A stretch of DNA of 64,000 nucleotides from Pseudomonas beijingensis (lineage in GTDB: Bacteria > Pseudomonadota > Gammaproteobacteria > Pseudomonadales > Pseudomonadaceae). Both the position numbers and the translations under genes were made by a program. Below the pieces are notes generated by a model. It was not told where the DNA came from. It did not search any database and saw nothing but the letters and a program-made list of their open reading frames with translations. The first letter of the stretch is position 1; every line of letters begins with the position of its first letter. The DNA is taken from positions 1,306,001 through 1,370,000 of the forward strand of contig NZ_CP117425.1 in the NCBI RefSeq assembly GCF_030687295.1, in the 5' to 3' direction. Shown here one piece after another: positions 33,306 to 41,813 of this stretch.

Positions 33306-34574
33306 TCATTTTTGCGCCAATGGATTCCCCCTGAACCGCAACGGTGCCGAGTCATAAAGTGCGGCAAACCGACCCGCGTCCCACTCTCCTCGCATACCCT
33401 CCAGCAACCCTCCATCAACTCGATACCCGCTGCTCGCCAGCGCCTGGCTCATCGCATCGGCGATTCGTTCGATGATCAAAGCGGGTTTATCAACTTTGCA
33501 ATGCTTACGACCGAACTCGATCAATTGCTTGCGATCAGGATAATTTTTTACCTTGTTCATCTTGATCGCCAATGTGCGATCTACCAGCGAGCGGCCAGAC
33601 TTGGGGTTGTAGTGTTCATAAACCGTGGTGGTGGTGACATCAAAAACCGGCGCCAACCGCACGCTTTCCGGCGCGTCCGGATGCGTATAGATAACACCAA
33701 AGTTTTTTAGATGGGCGTCGCCGTTGCGCACCATGACCGAGAGGCACACCGAGGAAAAAAAGCGCTCCAACTCGCGAACCGGTTCAGCATGACGGCATAC
33801 CTGTTCCACTACTGCGGCAAGGATTTCGTAGCTTTGGGAGTATTTGTAATTGTCGTGGGGGTCTTTGTGCAGGCCGAGCAACGCCGCCATGTCTTCGAAC
33901 CCCAGCCGTCCGGAAGGGGTCAGGTCGAACCTTTCCATAACAAACAACTCGCCGTTTTCCGAGAGCCAGAATGGCGGCGTTTCAAGACCTGCCAGGCGAG
34001 CCGCCTCCAGGCAAAGGAATTCGTTTTGCGCCAAATGGGCATACTCATCGGCACCGGATTTAACGATCAGATCGGAGCTGAGCATAGTTTTTCGATCACC
34101 CGTCAGCTTGTCCAAGTCAGGTACGAGTACCTTGGGCTGCACACCCGAAATACCTGACTCGAAATACGTATCGACCAGAAAATCAAAAACGCTTTGTGAA
34201 ATGTCCGCCGACAGAATGTCCTGCAGTCCGACCTGAGCACGAACAGGCACCGAAGCCTCGACAGGATTTATATAGCTGAGTCGCCCGATTTGATTGCCGC
34301 CTATTACCGACAACAGGCGCATATCGTCGACCTGCATATGCCTAGCCATCCGACGCTTGATCTGGTCCGCCAGAAAACCCTCAGGCACATTCATGTCAAA
34401 TATCGGATGAAGGACATTGCTGACTGAAGGCGTAGGGTCATAGGGCATGACCAGCGAAACCTCCCGAGGCGCCTCGGCACTGGCGTAAGCAAACGAGAAT
34501 TGCGAACCTTTGGACAAATCGCCGCTATAGCCTTGTGGTGTCATGACATTGAGCAGCTTGACCCTACTCATCAT
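33306..34574 (-). CDS. hipA: HipA-family serine/threonine kinase toxin
   Basis: A 422-residue HipA toxin. Visible elements are the N-terminal subdomain with FDMNVPEGFL, the glycine-rich phosphate loop ISGVQPKVLV, the catalytic loop RNGDAHLKNFG and the metal-binding APVFDVTTT. E. coli HipA phosphorylates glutamyl-tRNA synthetase, causing growth arrest and persistence. The start overlaps the end of hipB by 11 bases. All kinase motifs look intact, so the toxin is probably active. Confidence 0.92.
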   Translation of the reverse strand: MMSRVKLLNVMTPQGYSGDLSKGSQFSFAYASAEAPREVSLVMPYDPTPSVSNVLHPIFDMNVPEGFLADQIKRRMARHMQVDDMRLLSVIGGNQIGRLSYINPVEASVPVRAQVGLQDILSADISQSVFDFLVDTYFESGISGVQPKVLVPDLDKLTGDRKTMLSSDLIVKSGADEYAHLAQNEFLCLEAARLAGLETPPFWLSENGELFVMERFDLTPSGRLGFEDMAALLGLHKDPHDNYKYSQSYEILAAVVEQVCRHAEPVRELERFFSSVCLSVMVRNGDAHLKNFGVIYTHPDAPESVRLAPVFDVTTTTVYEHYNPKSGRSLVDRTLAIKMNKVKNYPDRKQLIEFGRKHCKVDKPALIIERIADAMSQALASSGYRVDGGLLEGMRGEWDAGRFAALYDSAPLRFRGNPLAQK

Positions 34575-34827
34575 GTTCCACCAGATCCGCTAGGGATTTG
34601 AGATCGATGCGTTTATCGACGACTTCCAGTGCCATCCCCAATGCCGACACGACCCGAAACAGGGTGTATATGGCCACGTTTTCACCGGCTTCAAGGTCGA
34701 TGATTGTCTTGCGATTGCAGTGGGCTTTTTCAGCGAGACGCTGTTGGCTGTAGCCTTTTGCACGGCGTAGCGAACGCATTCTTTCGCCGAGAGCTGAGGG
34801 ATTGAGAATAAGCACGATGTCCACCAT
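34564..34827 (-). CDS. hipB: HipB-type Xre antitoxin
   Basis: An 87-residue Xre-family antitoxin. The HTH reads LGERMRSLRRAKGYSQQRLAEKA and continues with the recognition helix NRKTIIDLEAG. I start at the ATG at 34827; a longer frame to 34899 has no recognisable sequence. No clear ribosome site precedes it, so a leaderless or weakly translated mRNA is possible. It should neutralise HipA and repress the operon. Two TGTCC-N8-GGAC sites overlap and precede the start codon. Confidence 0.88.
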   Translation of the reverse strand: MVDIVLILNPSALGERMRSLRRAKGYSQQRLAEKAHCNRKTIIDLEAGENVAIYTLFRVVSALGMALEVVDKRIDLKSLADLVEHDE

Positions 34828-34835
34828 AACGGACT
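34818..34835. promoter_or_regulatory. HipB operator-like site 1
   Basis: TGTCC-ACCATAAC-GGACT has the architecture of E. coli hip operators (TATCC-N8-GGATA). It overlaps the hipB start codon and would block initiation directly. Confidence 0.6.
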
Positions 34836-34857
34836 TTTTTCGAGTGAGCCCAAAGTA

Positions 34858-34875
34858 TGTCCTTAACGGCGGACA
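34858..34875. promoter_or_regulatory. HipB operator-like site 2
   Basis: TGTCC-TTAACGGC-GGACA is a perfect 5-8-5 dyad, centred 40 bp upstream of site 1, about four helical turns. It probably overlaps the hipBA promoter. Confidence 0.65.
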
Positions 34876-34972
34876 TTTCAAGCATCTTATTACGGGCATC
34901 CCAGAGTGGGAAAGGGACTGATCACACTACCTGAAACTCTGCTTCTGAAAATCTCGTAGGAATTTGCTTCCT

Positions 34973-35016
34973 GTGGCGAGGGAACTTGCTCCCGCTGGGC
35001 TGAAGCAGCCCTTCTT
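34973..35016. repeat. Single REP copy (GTGGCGAGGGAGC family)
   Basis: GTGGCGAGGGAACTTGCTCC followed by GCTGGGCTGAAGCAGCCC. It is a half element between hipBA and the DUF3077-type gene. Confidence 0.7.
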
Positions 35017-35081
35017 TAATCCGCTCCTGTAAATAAAAAATTCAATGCTGCCCGTTCGGAGCAGCATTGCAGCGGCGGCCC

Positions 35082-35360
35082 TTAAGCCGGATTGCTCCCT
35101 GGCGCCTCCAGCACCTTCACCACGTCATCGATGACGGCCTTGCTCATATCCTGCAAATAACACGACGCCCAGGCATACCGGTCCGTACTGCGGATCATCG
35201 CCGCGTCCTCGGCCAGGACCTTGGCAACGTGGAGCAGGTCAGAGGCGTGGGACAGGGCTTCGCCGATGGGGATGCCGCTGTTGACACGGAATAGCGGGCG
35301 GTCGGAGTGGTAGCAGAAGGGGGTTAGGCCTGGGGTTTTGAGGTCTTGCGGGTTTGGCAT
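35082..35360 (-). CDS. DUF3077/DUF6124-type small protein
   Basis: A 92-residue protein of a family common and often multicopy in fluorescens-group genomes. The start is MPNPQDLKTPGLTPF, and the middle (GEALSHASDLLHVAKVLAED) is helical. Function is unknown. I start at the ATG at 35360 because the family begins with such a short N-terminus. It stands alone, with no operon partner. Confidence 0.75.
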   Translation of the reverse strand: MPNPQDLKTPGLTPFCYHSDRPLFRVNSGIPIGEALSHASDLLHVAKVLAEDAAMIRSTDRYAWASCYLQDMSKAVIDDVVKVLEAPGSNPA

Positions 35361-35886
35361 TGTCTGGCTCCTTGACTGTGAGAGCCGCAACCGTCCTTTC
35401 CTACGGGATTGGGTGGCGGCCATGCACGGGGTAGGAAAACCGGGAATCAAGGCACCCGGCACACCCGAAGGTGTCCCGCGCACAGCCGCCATAACGCCTA
35501 TCGCAGACACAAAAAAAGCGCCTGCAATAGTAAGCGAGGCGCAGATGCGCCTTGATTTACTTCGGGTTTCCTACGCCCGGTCGCTGAATTGGCAGCGACG
35601 GTCAGAGAGTAGCGGGCGATTGGGTAGGGTGCAATCGTGGCGCGATGCTGGCGGGGGAGGGCCTCGTTTTGCATGTGTGGATCTGCCGAAAACATCCCAT
35701 AGTTTTAGCGCATAAAAAACCCGCACGATTTGAGCATGCTGACCGGGTCAACCTAGGCTTGGCGGGTATTTGGCAGCCATTTTTGGTTGCTGGAAAAGGT
35801 CGTCAACGTCCTGATGAAAGCATTTGTAACTCTGGATTGGAGGTGGGGGAGGTCTGGGGCTTGCCGGATTCAAGCTTTTCCTTCAA
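35361..35886. other. Intergenic region with dispersed-repeat character
   Basis: About 530 bases without a convincing gene. It contains AAAAAAAGCGCCTGC with GAGGCGCAGATGCGCC (35509-35553) and short inverted repeats such as GTCGCTGAATTGGCAGCGAC (35580-35599). A 65-codon minus-strand frame at 35498-35695 resembles reading frames over-annotated in repeat regions of related genomes, and I do not call it. Confidence 0.45.
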
Positions 35887-35908
35887 TGTAAAGACTAATG
35901 TCATTACA
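35887..35908. promoter_or_regulatory. Imperfect inverted repeat before relBE, candidate operator
   Basis: TGTAAAGAC-TAAT-GTCATTACA, with one mismatch, is centred about 25 bases before the relB ATG. Ribbon-helix-helix antitoxins usually bind such sites. Confidence 0.5.
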
Positions 35909-35922
35909 GTGAGGGCCATCTC

Positions 35923-36162
35923 ATGGCTTCCATCAACGTCCGTATCGACGACGACCTCAAGGCGCGTGCATACCGCGAGCTGGAAAAGCTCGGCGTTACC
36001 CCTTCTGAGCTGATGCGCCAAGCCTTGCAGTACGTAGCGGAGCGCGGCCAGTTACCGTTCAAGCCCGTCCTGATGACCGAGGACGATGAAGCCTTGATCG
36101 CAACGGTGCGCGAGCGACTCGCAGCCCCGCAGCGGGTTAAGGTTTCGCTAGATGACCTATAG
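35923..36162 (+). CDS. relB: RelB/DinJ-family antitoxin
   Basis: A 79-residue RelB/DinJ-type antitoxin. The N-terminal ribbon-helix-helix reads ASINVRIDDDLKARAYRELE then KLGVTPSELMRQAL, which dimerises and binds the operator. The C-terminal tail (about 50-79) wraps the toxin. It overlaps relE by 11 bases. Confidence 0.9.
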   Translation: MASINVRIDDDLKARAYRELEKLGVTPSELMRQALQYVAERGQLPFKPVLMTEDDEALIATVRERLAAPQRVKVSLDDL

Positions 36163-36442
36163 CCTCGAATTCGATGCACGGGCACTAAAGGAATGGCAAA
36201 AGCTAGGGAATACCGTCCGTGAGCAGCTCAAAAAGAAGCTCACTACGATCCTGGCCAATCCACGCGTCGAAGCAAACCGACTGCATGCCTTTCCTGATTG
36301 CTACAAGATTAAGCTGCGCAGCAGCGGTTATCGGTTGGTTTATCAGGTGATTGATCAGGAGGTCGTGGTGTTTGTCGTGGCCGTCGACAAACGTGAACGA
36401 GATCAGGTTTATCGGAAAGCGGCTGAGCGACTAGGTGGTTGA
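36152..36442 (+). CDS. relE: RelE-family mRNA interferase toxin
   Basis: A 96-residue RelE toxin that cleaves mRNA in the ribosomal A site. The family pattern LEFDARALKEWQKLG at the N-terminus and YKIKLRSSGYRLVYQV in the centre are present, with basic residues for RNA contact and the C-terminal KRERDQVYRKA helix. The module looks complete and functional. Confidence 0.92.
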   Translation: MTYSLEFDARALKEWQKLGNTVREQLKKKLTTILANPRVEANRLHAFPDCYKIKLRSSGYRLVYQVIDQEVVVFVVAVDKRERDQVYRKAAERLGG

Positions 36443-40027: not shown

Positions 40028-40981
40028 TCAACCCCGCCGTTTCAATTCCCTCACCCGCTTGATCACAAACTGTTCAAATAGCTCATGTTTGGTCACCACA
40101 TCGAACATTTCATATCGTGTAAATGCACGGATGACGGCACCGCATATTTCTGCTTCGTCGAGCGCCTTATTTTTGCCGTAAGCAGCAGCCAGGATGCCAT
40201 TCATGTTCTGCAAGTATTCCTGCATGCCGGTGTCACCCAGGATTTGGGCATAGACTTCCCGCCACGGTCTTTTGTCTACTTCCTGTATGTCGCGTCCGAC
40301 AAATGTCCAGCTCATGTAAAGCTGGCCGTCTATTTCGAAGCTTTCAAAACGACTGTCCGTCTGGAAGGTATCGCTGCTGACTAAGGTGTTTCGTTCTGGT
40401 GGGTAGGGTGCGGTTTGGGATTTTCGTCTGCTAAGGACTCTGGATGCGCCGTCTACCTGTACGCAAATCACTGGTTGAGGGAGCGGGCGTAATATTTTAT
40501 TGAATGTTGCTTCTTTGGATGCCCCTGCCAAGGTAAGGACCGAGCGGAAATATTGCTCCACACAGGATGAGGCTTTGAACGCTTCACGCAACCAATCGGA
40601 GGGCATCAACAGCTCTGCGGCAAATCGATTGGCTTCGGTTTCCATCTGGCTGTAGGCGGCATCAACTTCCCCGTTTTCCAAGTGGGATACGATTGTGCCG
40701 GTATGCCATGGGATGACAACATGCCCAATCTCGTGGGCTAACGTGAATTTTCGACGGGTACCGGGAGCGCTTGAGTTGATCAGGATACGAGGCTTAGTAG
40801 TAGCGCCGATACCAATTGTGATTCCGTCCACGCCGAACGGCAGTTCAAGGTATTCAAGCTCCCCATAGGCAGAGGCGAGCTGTTCTAGATCGTAAGGCGG
40901 TGTCAGTTTGCGGATGGCCAGGACGCGACTGGCCATTTTTTCTTCTGGGGTCACTAGATCTTGCCCACGCTGCGTAGCCAC
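40028..40981 (-). CDS. ImmA/IrrE-family zinc metalloprotease
   Basis: A 317-residue ImmA/IrrE (COG2856) protein. The zinc motif LAHEIGHVV places H83, E84 and H87, and the third ligand lies in METEANRFAAELLMP (about 114-116). Such proteases cleave Xre-type repressors or antitoxins and so switch phage, conjugative-element or stress genes. The remaining ~170 residues have no recognisable domain. Its start lies 28 bases inside the preceding 103-residue gene, so the three genes from 41511 form one operon. Here it may control the stability of the cassette's antitoxin. Confidence 0.9.
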   Translation of the reverse strand: MATQRGQDLVTPEEKMASRVLAIRKLTPPYDLEQLASAYGELEYLELPFGVDGITIGIGATTKPRILINSSAPGTRRKFTLAHEIGHVVIPWHTGTIVSHLENGEVDAAYSQMETEANRFAAELLMPSDWLREAFKASSCVEQYFRSVLTLAGASKEATFNKILRPLPQPVICVQVDGASRVLSRRKSQTAPYPPERNTLVSSDTFQTDSRFESFEIDGQLYMSWTFVGRDIQEVDKRPWREVYAQILGDTGMQEYLQNMNGILAAAYGKNKALDEAEICGAVIRAFTRYEMFDVVTKHELFEQFVIKRVRELKRRG

Positions 40982-41265
40982 GCTTCGACTTTGGTCGCTT
41001 CAGCGACCGATCGTGCTCGCGCAGCAATCGCAAATTTATCTTGATCGAGTTGCTCCTTAAGAGAGGTGCCGTATTTGTGGGCAGTCAATACAAAAGGTAA
41101 GACAGAAGGGGTTGTTGACCACAGCTGGTACTCTTCCCACTTCATGCCCAGGTACTCATGCAACTGCATGTCGGCACCTTGACGGCCTTCGTGCCAGTCC
41201 TCGACGAATCGGTCGATCTCTTCTTCCAACACATCGCCTTTAAGGCAAAGCTCTACAAAATTCAT
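40954..41265 (-). CDS. Small acidic protein, putative antitoxin/immunity partner
   Basis: A 103-residue protein. The N-terminal half is acidic (GDVLEEEIDRFVEDWHEG) and contains LHEYLGMKWEEYQLWSTTP, a pattern seen in small proteins beside ImmA/IrrE genes. The C-terminal half is basic and helical. It has no similarity I can see to colicin E3 immunity protein, and no HTH is obvious. GAGAGG precedes its ATG. It lies between a colicin-E3-like toxin (9-base gap) and the ImmA protease (28-base overlap). By position it should be the toxin's antidote. Confidence 0.65.
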   Translation of the reverse strand: MNFVELCLKGDVLEEEIDRFVEDWHEGRQGADMQLHEYLGMKWEEYQLWSTTPSVLPFVLTAHKYGTSLKEQLDQDKFAIAARARSVAEATKVEAWLRSVGKI

Positions 41266-41274
41266 ATGAACCTC

Positions 41275-41511
41275 TCAGTTCGGTTTGATCCTTCGTCCAC
41301 GGACGGCAGGTTTCAAAGCAAGCCCGGTTTCAGGGCAGACCGAACCCAGGTGAAAGCCACGTCGGTCGAAGACTTCAAACTCGCCATGAAGCGAATCCCA
41401 TGAGTAGTATCGTTGCTCTACGGCATCAAAGTAGTACTTACGGCCACCCTCTACATACGCGACTCTGAAACCGCTGACAATAGAAGGATCAGGTCTTGGT
41501 TTGCCACCCAT
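41275..41511 (-). CDS. Stand-alone colicin-E3/cloacin-type 16S rRNase toxin domain
   Basis: A 78-residue protein that is almost entirely a colicin E3 C-terminal cytotoxic domain. SWDSLHGEFEVF aligns with the E3 active site: D39, H42, E44 and E46 correspond to D510, H513, E515 and E517, followed by HLGSVCPETG (E3 has HLGSFDPKTG) and a basic tail RGRRIKP supplying the arginine equivalent to R545. Colicin E3 cuts 16S rRNA in the decoding centre and stops translation. No translocation or receptor domain exists here, so it should act inside the producing cell. It is the first gene of the operon, preceded by AAGGGA. Confidence 0.82.
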   Translation of the reverse strand: MGGKPRPDPSIVSGFRVAYVEGGRKYYFDAVEQRYYSWDSLHGEFEVFDRRGFHLGSVCPETGLALKPAVRGRRIKPN

Positions 41512-41668
41512 CCAACGTTCCCTTAATCCCGAAAACTGGTTTTGGCATCGTTGCCAAGGAGGGGTCGGACTATACCGCAGCTGGATTGGGGTGGGCGGCA
41601 GCCTGAAGCGTGGATCGTTTCAAGAAATCGCAAGCGCCATATGAGAGGCGTAAGAGCCTCTAAAACGA

Positions 41669-41737: not shown

Positions 41738-41813
<76 letters not shown>

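Follow-up and report, generated by a model that had tools for sequence, protein, structure and literature searches.

Colicin E3, cloacin DF13, and pyocin S6 carry a cytotoxic rRNase domain at the C-terminus of an exported protein that also has a delivery part, and passages of PMC9990079 list CdiA-CT members possessing the same domain (PF09000). The three-gene cassette described here, from Pseudomonas beijingensis, encodes a toxin that has this domain and its active-site residues in common with colicin E3, cloacin DF13, and pyocin S6. Here, however, the domain makes up nearly the whole protein, and the accompanying antidote matches no Pfam immunity family.

Proteases of the type encoded by the third gene are known from other settings. 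Specifically, CapP of the CapH–CapP pair, from CBASS, and PprI (IrrE), which acts on DdrO, have the same protease fold and zinc site (for CapP and CapH, as given in passages of PMC10904395). The portions of the literature at hand report that PprI is activated by ssDNA (PMC10904395) and that its cut in DdrO falls within a C-terminal loop, between Leu108 and Arg109 (PMC4374696). In both pairs, as described there, the substrates are repressors that silence transcription, and the CapP partner CapH is an HTH repressor. In our cassette, by contrast, the likely substrate is the antidote, whose family matches no Pfam family, HTH profiles included (51 members, E ≤ 0.01). Thus, release of the toxin would be post-translational.

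Toxin–antitoxin (TA) systems that include such proteases have been described. Makarova et al. 2009 (passages of PMC2701414) predict three-component TA systems in which a COG2856 protease accompanies Xre repressors together with toxins of the RelE or PIN type. There, likewise, an ImmA-type protease was proposed to cut an antitoxin or a repressor, but those passages link the protease to Xre repressors and do not contain the word colicin. The phage-defense TA system RosmerTA also shares the ImmA-type protease: its antitoxin, RmrA, is an ImmA-domain protein, often with an HTH (portions of PMC10440598). As presented there, RosmerTA has two genes, one of them the protease-domain antitoxin, whereas in the cassette the antidote and the protease each have a gene of their own, and the protease contains no HTH profile (Pfam, E ≤ 1). 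Cleavage of 16S rRNA by a TA toxin has precedent in RelS–RelI of Mycobacterium, whose RelE/BrnT-like toxin cuts the anti-Shine-Dalgarno region (portions of PMC13284704). Its antitoxin, as described in those portions, differs from the cassette antidote, and the RelE/BrnT fold rules out RelS–RelI as the same system. Finally, a survey of TA systems in Pseudomonas syringae lists ImmA-IrrE, and the word colicin is absent from it (PMC8790059). Among the matches listed in the open-licence literature, no paper places an E3-type toxin within a TA module, in keeping with the original prediction, for which no description of the arrangement was known. The E3 domain itself is already annotated, as NCBI lists these proteins under the name "colicin E3/pyocin S6 family cytotoxin." It is the system of toxin, antidote, and protease for which those matches contain no description.

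The cassette lies in what we call the window, the whole 64,000-nucleotide stretch of DNA that was analysed. As predicted, it consists of three co-directional, tightly packed minus-strand genes, and these adjoin a minus-strand tRNA-Thr(TGT) gene (41738..41813, identified with ARAGORN). The toxin gene (41275..41511; 78 aa, pI 9.5) is followed directly on its 3' side by the antidote gene (40954..41265) and then by the gene for an M78 (ImmA/IrrE/PprI/CapP-type) protease. An ImmA-type metalloprotease overlapping the second gene had been predicted; the identity and the overlap both stand, and only the extent of the overlap changes. In the list of open reading frames, the protease starts at a GTG at 40981, yielding 317 aa and a 28-nt overlap with the antidote gene. 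In 8 of 11 Pseudomonas/Azotobacter loci (L004-L010, L062), however, the first available protease start coincides with the last base of the antidote gene, while L011, L012, and L025 have an in-frame earlier start, as in the window. The antidote/protease junction in the window reads TAGTG, and in the protease structure model residues 1-7, ahead of the junction start, are disordered (pLDDT below 50). On these three grounds we reset the start to 40954. Most likely, the protease gene spans 40028..40954, encodes 308 aa from a GTG start, and overlaps the antidote stop by 1 nt.

Upstream of the toxin gene, an alignment of nine Pseudomonas upstream regions reveals a TATAGT −10-like box (41569-41574, minus strand), although a promoter consensus scan did not call a promoter at this box. 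Just downstream of the box is an inverted repeat, TTGGC-N6-GCCAA (41542..41557), that we spotted by eye in the alignment and that is imperfect in some of the nine regions; it is a possible operator.

The first gene matches the PF09000 "Cytotoxic" profile with E = 8.8e-12 (45.7 bits against a cut-off of 22), residues 21-76 aligning with positions 24-80 of the 80-position model, and it matches PDB colicin E3 both directly (phmmer, 8.5e-6) and through a family profile (1.3e-10). The proposed correspondence of residues, in order and spacing, is reproduced in the phmmer alignment: D39, H42, E44, E46, and R73 of the toxin pair with D510, H513, E515, E517, and R545 of colicin E3. The roles of these residues are those assigned in the literature. 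H54 likewise pairs with a histidine of colicin E3, which is probably the second histidine stressed in passages of PMC3482391. W38, D39, H42, G43, E44, E46, G52, and H54 are present in 60 of 61 toxin rows (the window plus 60 loci), the remaining row having a gap, and R73 is present in 59 of 61, the remainder being gaps. The conservation of D39, H42, E44, and R73 is partly circular because the scan that collected these loci used the patterns [ST]WDS[LW]HGE and [LI]KP[PA]VRGRR[IV]; E46 and H54 lie outside the patterns. By sequence, then, gene 1 is a stand-alone colicin E3-type rRNase with its active-site residues in place. The PADLOC model NsnC was set aside as an identity for the toxin; its match has E = 4e-4, and no NsnC paper appeared among the matches listed.

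The whole toxin is 78 aa. As foreseen, no receptor-binding, translocation, or secretion part is present in the protein, and the preceding gene is the tRNA-Thr gene. Because it is made without delivery parts, the toxin would act in its own cell, where we infer that it cuts 16S rRNA at the decoding site.

The second gene specifies the acidic, 103-residue protein that had been predicted (pI 5.0, with 18 D+E vs 12 K+R). It belongs to a new family. Searches of NCBIfam, PADLOC, and the PDB gave nothing for the protein, and Pfam gave a single sub-threshold match (E = 0.24). Across the family there is no PADLOC model, although members give two stray PADLOC matches (0.0051 and 0.01) and one member gives an unrelated NCBIfam match at 0.0024. 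At the level of sequence, therefore, the description "unlike known E3 immunity proteins" holds. The AlphaFold model of the antidote is all-helical (mean pLDDT 88), firm over residues 1-70 and loose beyond (59-79), and a fold search with it returned no usable match.

The evidence that gene 2 is the antidote comes from the company it keeps. A toxin-only pattern scan of 84,980 species, one genome per species, yielded 61 loci, and in 60 of these a member of the antidote family comes next on the same strand, within 35 nt in 58. Such adjacent, co-directional small genes are the arrangement of a type II TA system. An intact toxin core together with the antidote occurs in 57 loci, and in three others (L011, L062, L063) the antidote stands beside a broken or incompletely matched toxin. 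An intact toxin core lacking the antidote occurs in none of the 61; in the lone locus with no antidote (L041), the toxin ends ahead of its basic tail. One further genome (G191) contains the antidote and no PF09000 match anywhere. Decay of the toxin with retention of the antidote is as expected for a toxin and its antidote.

Additional support comes from outside the stand-alone loci. We examined 394 genomes of the class to which the Streptomyces locus L049 belongs, and 10 of them possess the toxin domain. All five short E3 frames (86-159 aa) in that class are followed by the antidote; one is L049 itself, so four are new. The antidote also comes next after two of five long E3 frames (814-2316 aa), L290 and L296, and the visible parts of these two contain RHS repeats with PF09000 at the end, identifying them as Rhs proteins. 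The other three long actinobacterial E3 proteins (L291, L293, L294) have no antidote within 1.5-kb flanks. Because it follows the E3 ends of two Rhs proteins, the antidote occupies the position of a polymorphic-toxin immunity gene. Among Pseudomonadaceae, 30 of the 68 listed PF09000 places were checked, mostly of pyocin length, and none of the 30 carries the antidote; two more places (G019, G056) carry all three genes. Since some E3 loci of the Rhs kind carry this antidote and the 30 checked Pseudomonadaceae ones do not, the antidote family, judged from these neighborhoods, is one among several ways of conferring immunity to the E3 domain, common to own-cell modules and to some Rhs weapons. 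Adjacency in 60 of 61 loci, constant presence beside an intact core, and association with Rhs-E3 domains make gene 2 as the antidote of the E3 toxin a well-supported assignment. They likewise uphold the predicted order of toxin first, antidote second, and protease third. Neutralization of the toxin by the antitoxin protein is supported by association, and we regard the toxin–antidote core as very likely. The antidote would bind the toxin directly, with the N-domain of about 66 residues (aa 1-66, 41068..41265, minus strand; pLDDT ~94) as the presumptive neutralizing part.

The Rhs proteins bring up a different reading, that the cassette is a toxin–immunity pair stored as a recombination donor for polymorphic toxins such as Rhs proteins, and not an own-cell module. 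The same toxin–antidote pair does end two actinobacterial Rhs proteins, and stand-alone cassettes serving as donors are described in passages of PMC3482391. The solo toxin genes, however, have a conserved start region of their own, and a dedicated protease is present in 38 of 61 loci, so we consider storage highly improbable. We note that three Rhodopila loci (L055, L059, L060) carry tandem toxin–antidote pairs or remnants of them without a protease, resembling immunity-gene arrays.

The idea of a hyper-promiscuous antitoxin, whose N-domain would partner with other toxins, was also considered and rejected, as no partner toxin is evident by eye beside the plasmid-borne solo copies (L002, L003) or beside those of the listed viral loci. 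Separately, one cellular antidote copy (L300) ends a 176-aa frame, with no E3 gene in its 1.5-kb flanks, and two others (L301, L302) resemble internal deletions.

The product of the third gene is an M78 peptidase (PF06114, E = 5.7e-16) with an HExxH motif. Its zinc site, HEIGH (40721..40735, minus strand), includes H83, E84, and H87, invariant in a 47-row alignment (317-aa numbering, as below). Structure comparison assigns the protein the PprI/CapP fold, and by profile it matches both PprI and CapP. In that numbering, R76 and F79 probably match the PprI ssDNA contacts Arg85 and Phe88, the offset being inferred. The protease is the third gene in 38 of the 61 loci, a few copies being broken or partial and two (L011, L062) accompanying a broken toxin. 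It is missing from the other 23, four of which have less than 1500 nt of downstream sequence.

One could argue that the protease is itself the antitoxin, or degrades the toxin, in the manner of RmrA in RosmerTA. ImmA-domain antitoxins are on record (portions of PMC10440598), and over its protease core gene 3 matches RmrA models (best 4e-11), as well as the NCBIfam spr1629 repressor/antitoxin model (1.2e-10, below that model's cut-off). The best PADLOC match is far better, though, and it is to capP (1.6e-27). Moreover, 22 of the 23 protease-negative loci keep the antidote, and presence of the protease tracks the tail of the antidote. Together these observations leave an antitoxin role for the protease quite unlikely.

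What the protease appears to be coupled to is the C-terminal tail of the antidote (aa 67-103, 40957..41067, minus strand), which we take as the putative protease-responsive part. All 36 protease-positive tree rows have the tail with an [AI]AR motif, as does 1 of the 18 protease-negative rows; the tree omits L011, L014, L041, and L062, and the coupling count also omits L023, L061, and L064, whose downstream sequence is short. The independent events behind the coupling are few: on well-supported branches, five pairs differ in the protease; the tail changes in the same direction in four and in the opposite direction in none (sign test, p = 0.125). Because tail and protease adjoin, the coupling may reflect one deletion removing both. 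One locus (L035) keeps the tail with no protease, and the arrays of Acetobacteraceae combine a long tail with the absence of both AAR and protease. The earlier idea that the protease degrades the small protein fits this coupling. We think it probable that the protease acts on the antidote, and, by analogy with the Leu|Arg cut in DdrO, cleavage would occur in the tail near [A/I]AR; in the window this motif is AAR (aa 81-83, 41017..41025, minus strand), kept in protease-positive loci and a candidate scissile region. That ssDNA is the trigger, suggested by the parallel in fold, is an evenly balanced proposition.

The explanation that we favor, and hold to be reasonably likely as a whole, is that of a chromosomal TA module with an ssDNA-sensing protease. 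Gene 1, made without delivery parts, would cut the decoding site of the cell's own 16S rRNA, and the first ~66 residues of gene 2's product would neutralize it. Gene 3 would be switched on, most likely by ssDNA arising from DNA damage or phage replication. The active protease would then cut the C-terminal tail of the antidote near the [A/I]AR motif, the toxin would be freed, and translation would stop. The steps that have comparative support are the E3 domain and its active site, gene 2 as the E3 partner, the fold and zinc site of gene 3, and the protease–tail link. If this explanation is correct, the classic colicin E3 rRNase has been brought inside the cell as a TA effector, a damage-sensing protease acts directly on an antitoxin, and an antidote family with no Pfam entry, along with four PHROG families of unknown function, acquires a function.

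Those PHROG families are 14299, 10992, 12685, and 12828, which the window antidote matches with E values of 8.2e-11, 1.2e-8, 1.4e-6, and 1.4e-4, respectively. At E ≤ 0.01, the window query detects the antidote N-domain in 62 phage records and a Nitrosomonas query detects it in 114, all below 60% identity, and the phage matches listed mostly cover 40-70% of the query. The window toxin as query finds four phage records. We searched 28 viral records whole with PF09000, ten of them from the 62 and 114 phage records: 23 solo-antidote carriers (15 IMG/VR contigs and eight named phages) and five cassette carriers. The toxin was detected in all five cassette carriers and in none of the 23 solo-antidote records, and the family profile gave the same outcome. 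The solo carriers (L110, L113-L126; L207-L212, L214, L215) include phages of Mycobacterium, Gordonia, Streptomyces, and Pseudomonas. Four of the solo contigs are 270-350 kb, two (L119, L121) share the same antidote protein, and the contigs may be fragments. What the solo copies keep is the N-domain: in the 15 IMG/VR copies, the match lies mostly within positions 1-70 of the antidote model, one reaching 81, and the [AI]AR motif is present in 0 of the 14 contig copies that are readable past the N-domain or end there, the frame of L118 being broken.

A Pseudomonas prophage (L068 4107-6558; L110 3833-5418; phage UFJF_PfPro, L209 1833-3418) provides a suggestive case. It carries an integrase gene, next to it a lone antidote of 74-88 aa, and then, as a border, 40 bp from the 3' end of tRNA-Thr, the rest of the tRNA being missing; in L068 an E3 cassette lies directly beyond the border. 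The simplest reading is that a phage landing beside the toxin brings its own antidote as counter-defense. Alternatively, the antidote N-domain may have some other function in phages. We put phage defense as the main role of the cassette at slightly under an even chance. The complete abortive-infection scenario, in which the ssDNA-sensing PprI/CapP-type protease clips the AAR tail and turns the E3 rRNase loose on the decoding sites of the cell that made it, and phages answer with tail-less lone antidotes that the protease could not clip, is a tentative one that we judge possible but rather doubtful. Under that scenario, the answer would be carried by the four PHROG families above, by very large phages, and by a prophage integrating beside the cassette. 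A sharp prediction of our favored explanation is that solo antidotes from Gordonia and Streptomyces phages neutralize E3 toxins.

Phages can also carry more of the cassette. In Gordonia phage Phabuloso (L206 1364-4030), toxin and antidote genes lie between an immunity repressor and a small annotated metalloprotease that scores 21.1 bits against the M78 cut-off of 22. The Phabuloso toxin has an N-terminal extension ahead of its PF09000 domain, its antidote is a 284-aa fusion, and the pair is annotated as HicA/HicB-like. Toxin and antidote matches sit side by side in Gordonia phages Kamaru and LitninMcQueen, and an unverified record, MT835780, contains all three parts. Viral contigs contain 80 protease loci.

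The genomic setting of the cassette bears on a further possibility, that of an addiction module that stabilizes mobile DNA at the tRNA-Thr site, with the protease merely tuning antidote turnover and with no role in defense. The site is variable. We compared 25 of 30 fetched tRNA-Thr loci of the genus (L257-L286; the other five had no exact match to the tRNA), and, with classes defined by blastn as sharing at least 250 nt, the sequence downstream falls into 18 classes among the 25 loci, our own included, which marks the site as an integration hotspot. One shared class opens with what we take to be a P4-type integrase and another with what is presumably a DUF4065-like gene. A partial tRNA-Thr border adjoins the cassette in L005, L068, L069, and L070; in the stretches searched at the L005, L069, and L070 borders, a second antidote was not found. 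HipA, accompanied by an HTH partner gene, lies together with a pair of the RelB/ParE type at 33306-36442 of the window, making three TA-like modules within ~8 kb. Addiction would suit this hotspot, the presence of the HipA/HTH and RelB/ParE modules in the same island, and the patchy, rare occurrence of the cassette. A dedicated protease of the PprI/CapP fold, however, exceeds what addiction needs, and lone antidotes in phages suggest that the toxin exerts pressure on phages. We thus consider pure addiction unlikely and retain the own-cell module with a protease-cleavable antidote as our preferred explanation.

The three-gene set recurs in other genomes: toxin, whole or remnant, plus antidote in 60 of the 61 loci, and the protease as well in 38. 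The 61 loci are distributed among Pseudomonas, Azotobacter, cyanobacteria, Methylococcaceae, Acetobacteraceae, Streptomyces, and others, in nine phyla by record title, some of which may be mislabeled, as many of the records are MAGs. The antidote is rare, occurring in 4 of 298 Pseudomonadaceae genomes, in 1 of 398 genomes of the phylum (the P. beijingensis genome itself), and in 4 of 194 genomes from the class that includes L015. Among 293 genomes of the order, the protease family gives a match in 52, full-length only in P. beijingensis and partial or weak in the others. Finally, the P. beijingensis genome harbors two further PF09000 domains, at 1303908-1304141, ~2 kb to the left of the window, and at 2121056-2121289. 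Both reside in frames of bacteriocin length (420-429 aa), and they score 107-117 bits vs 44 for the cassette toxin.
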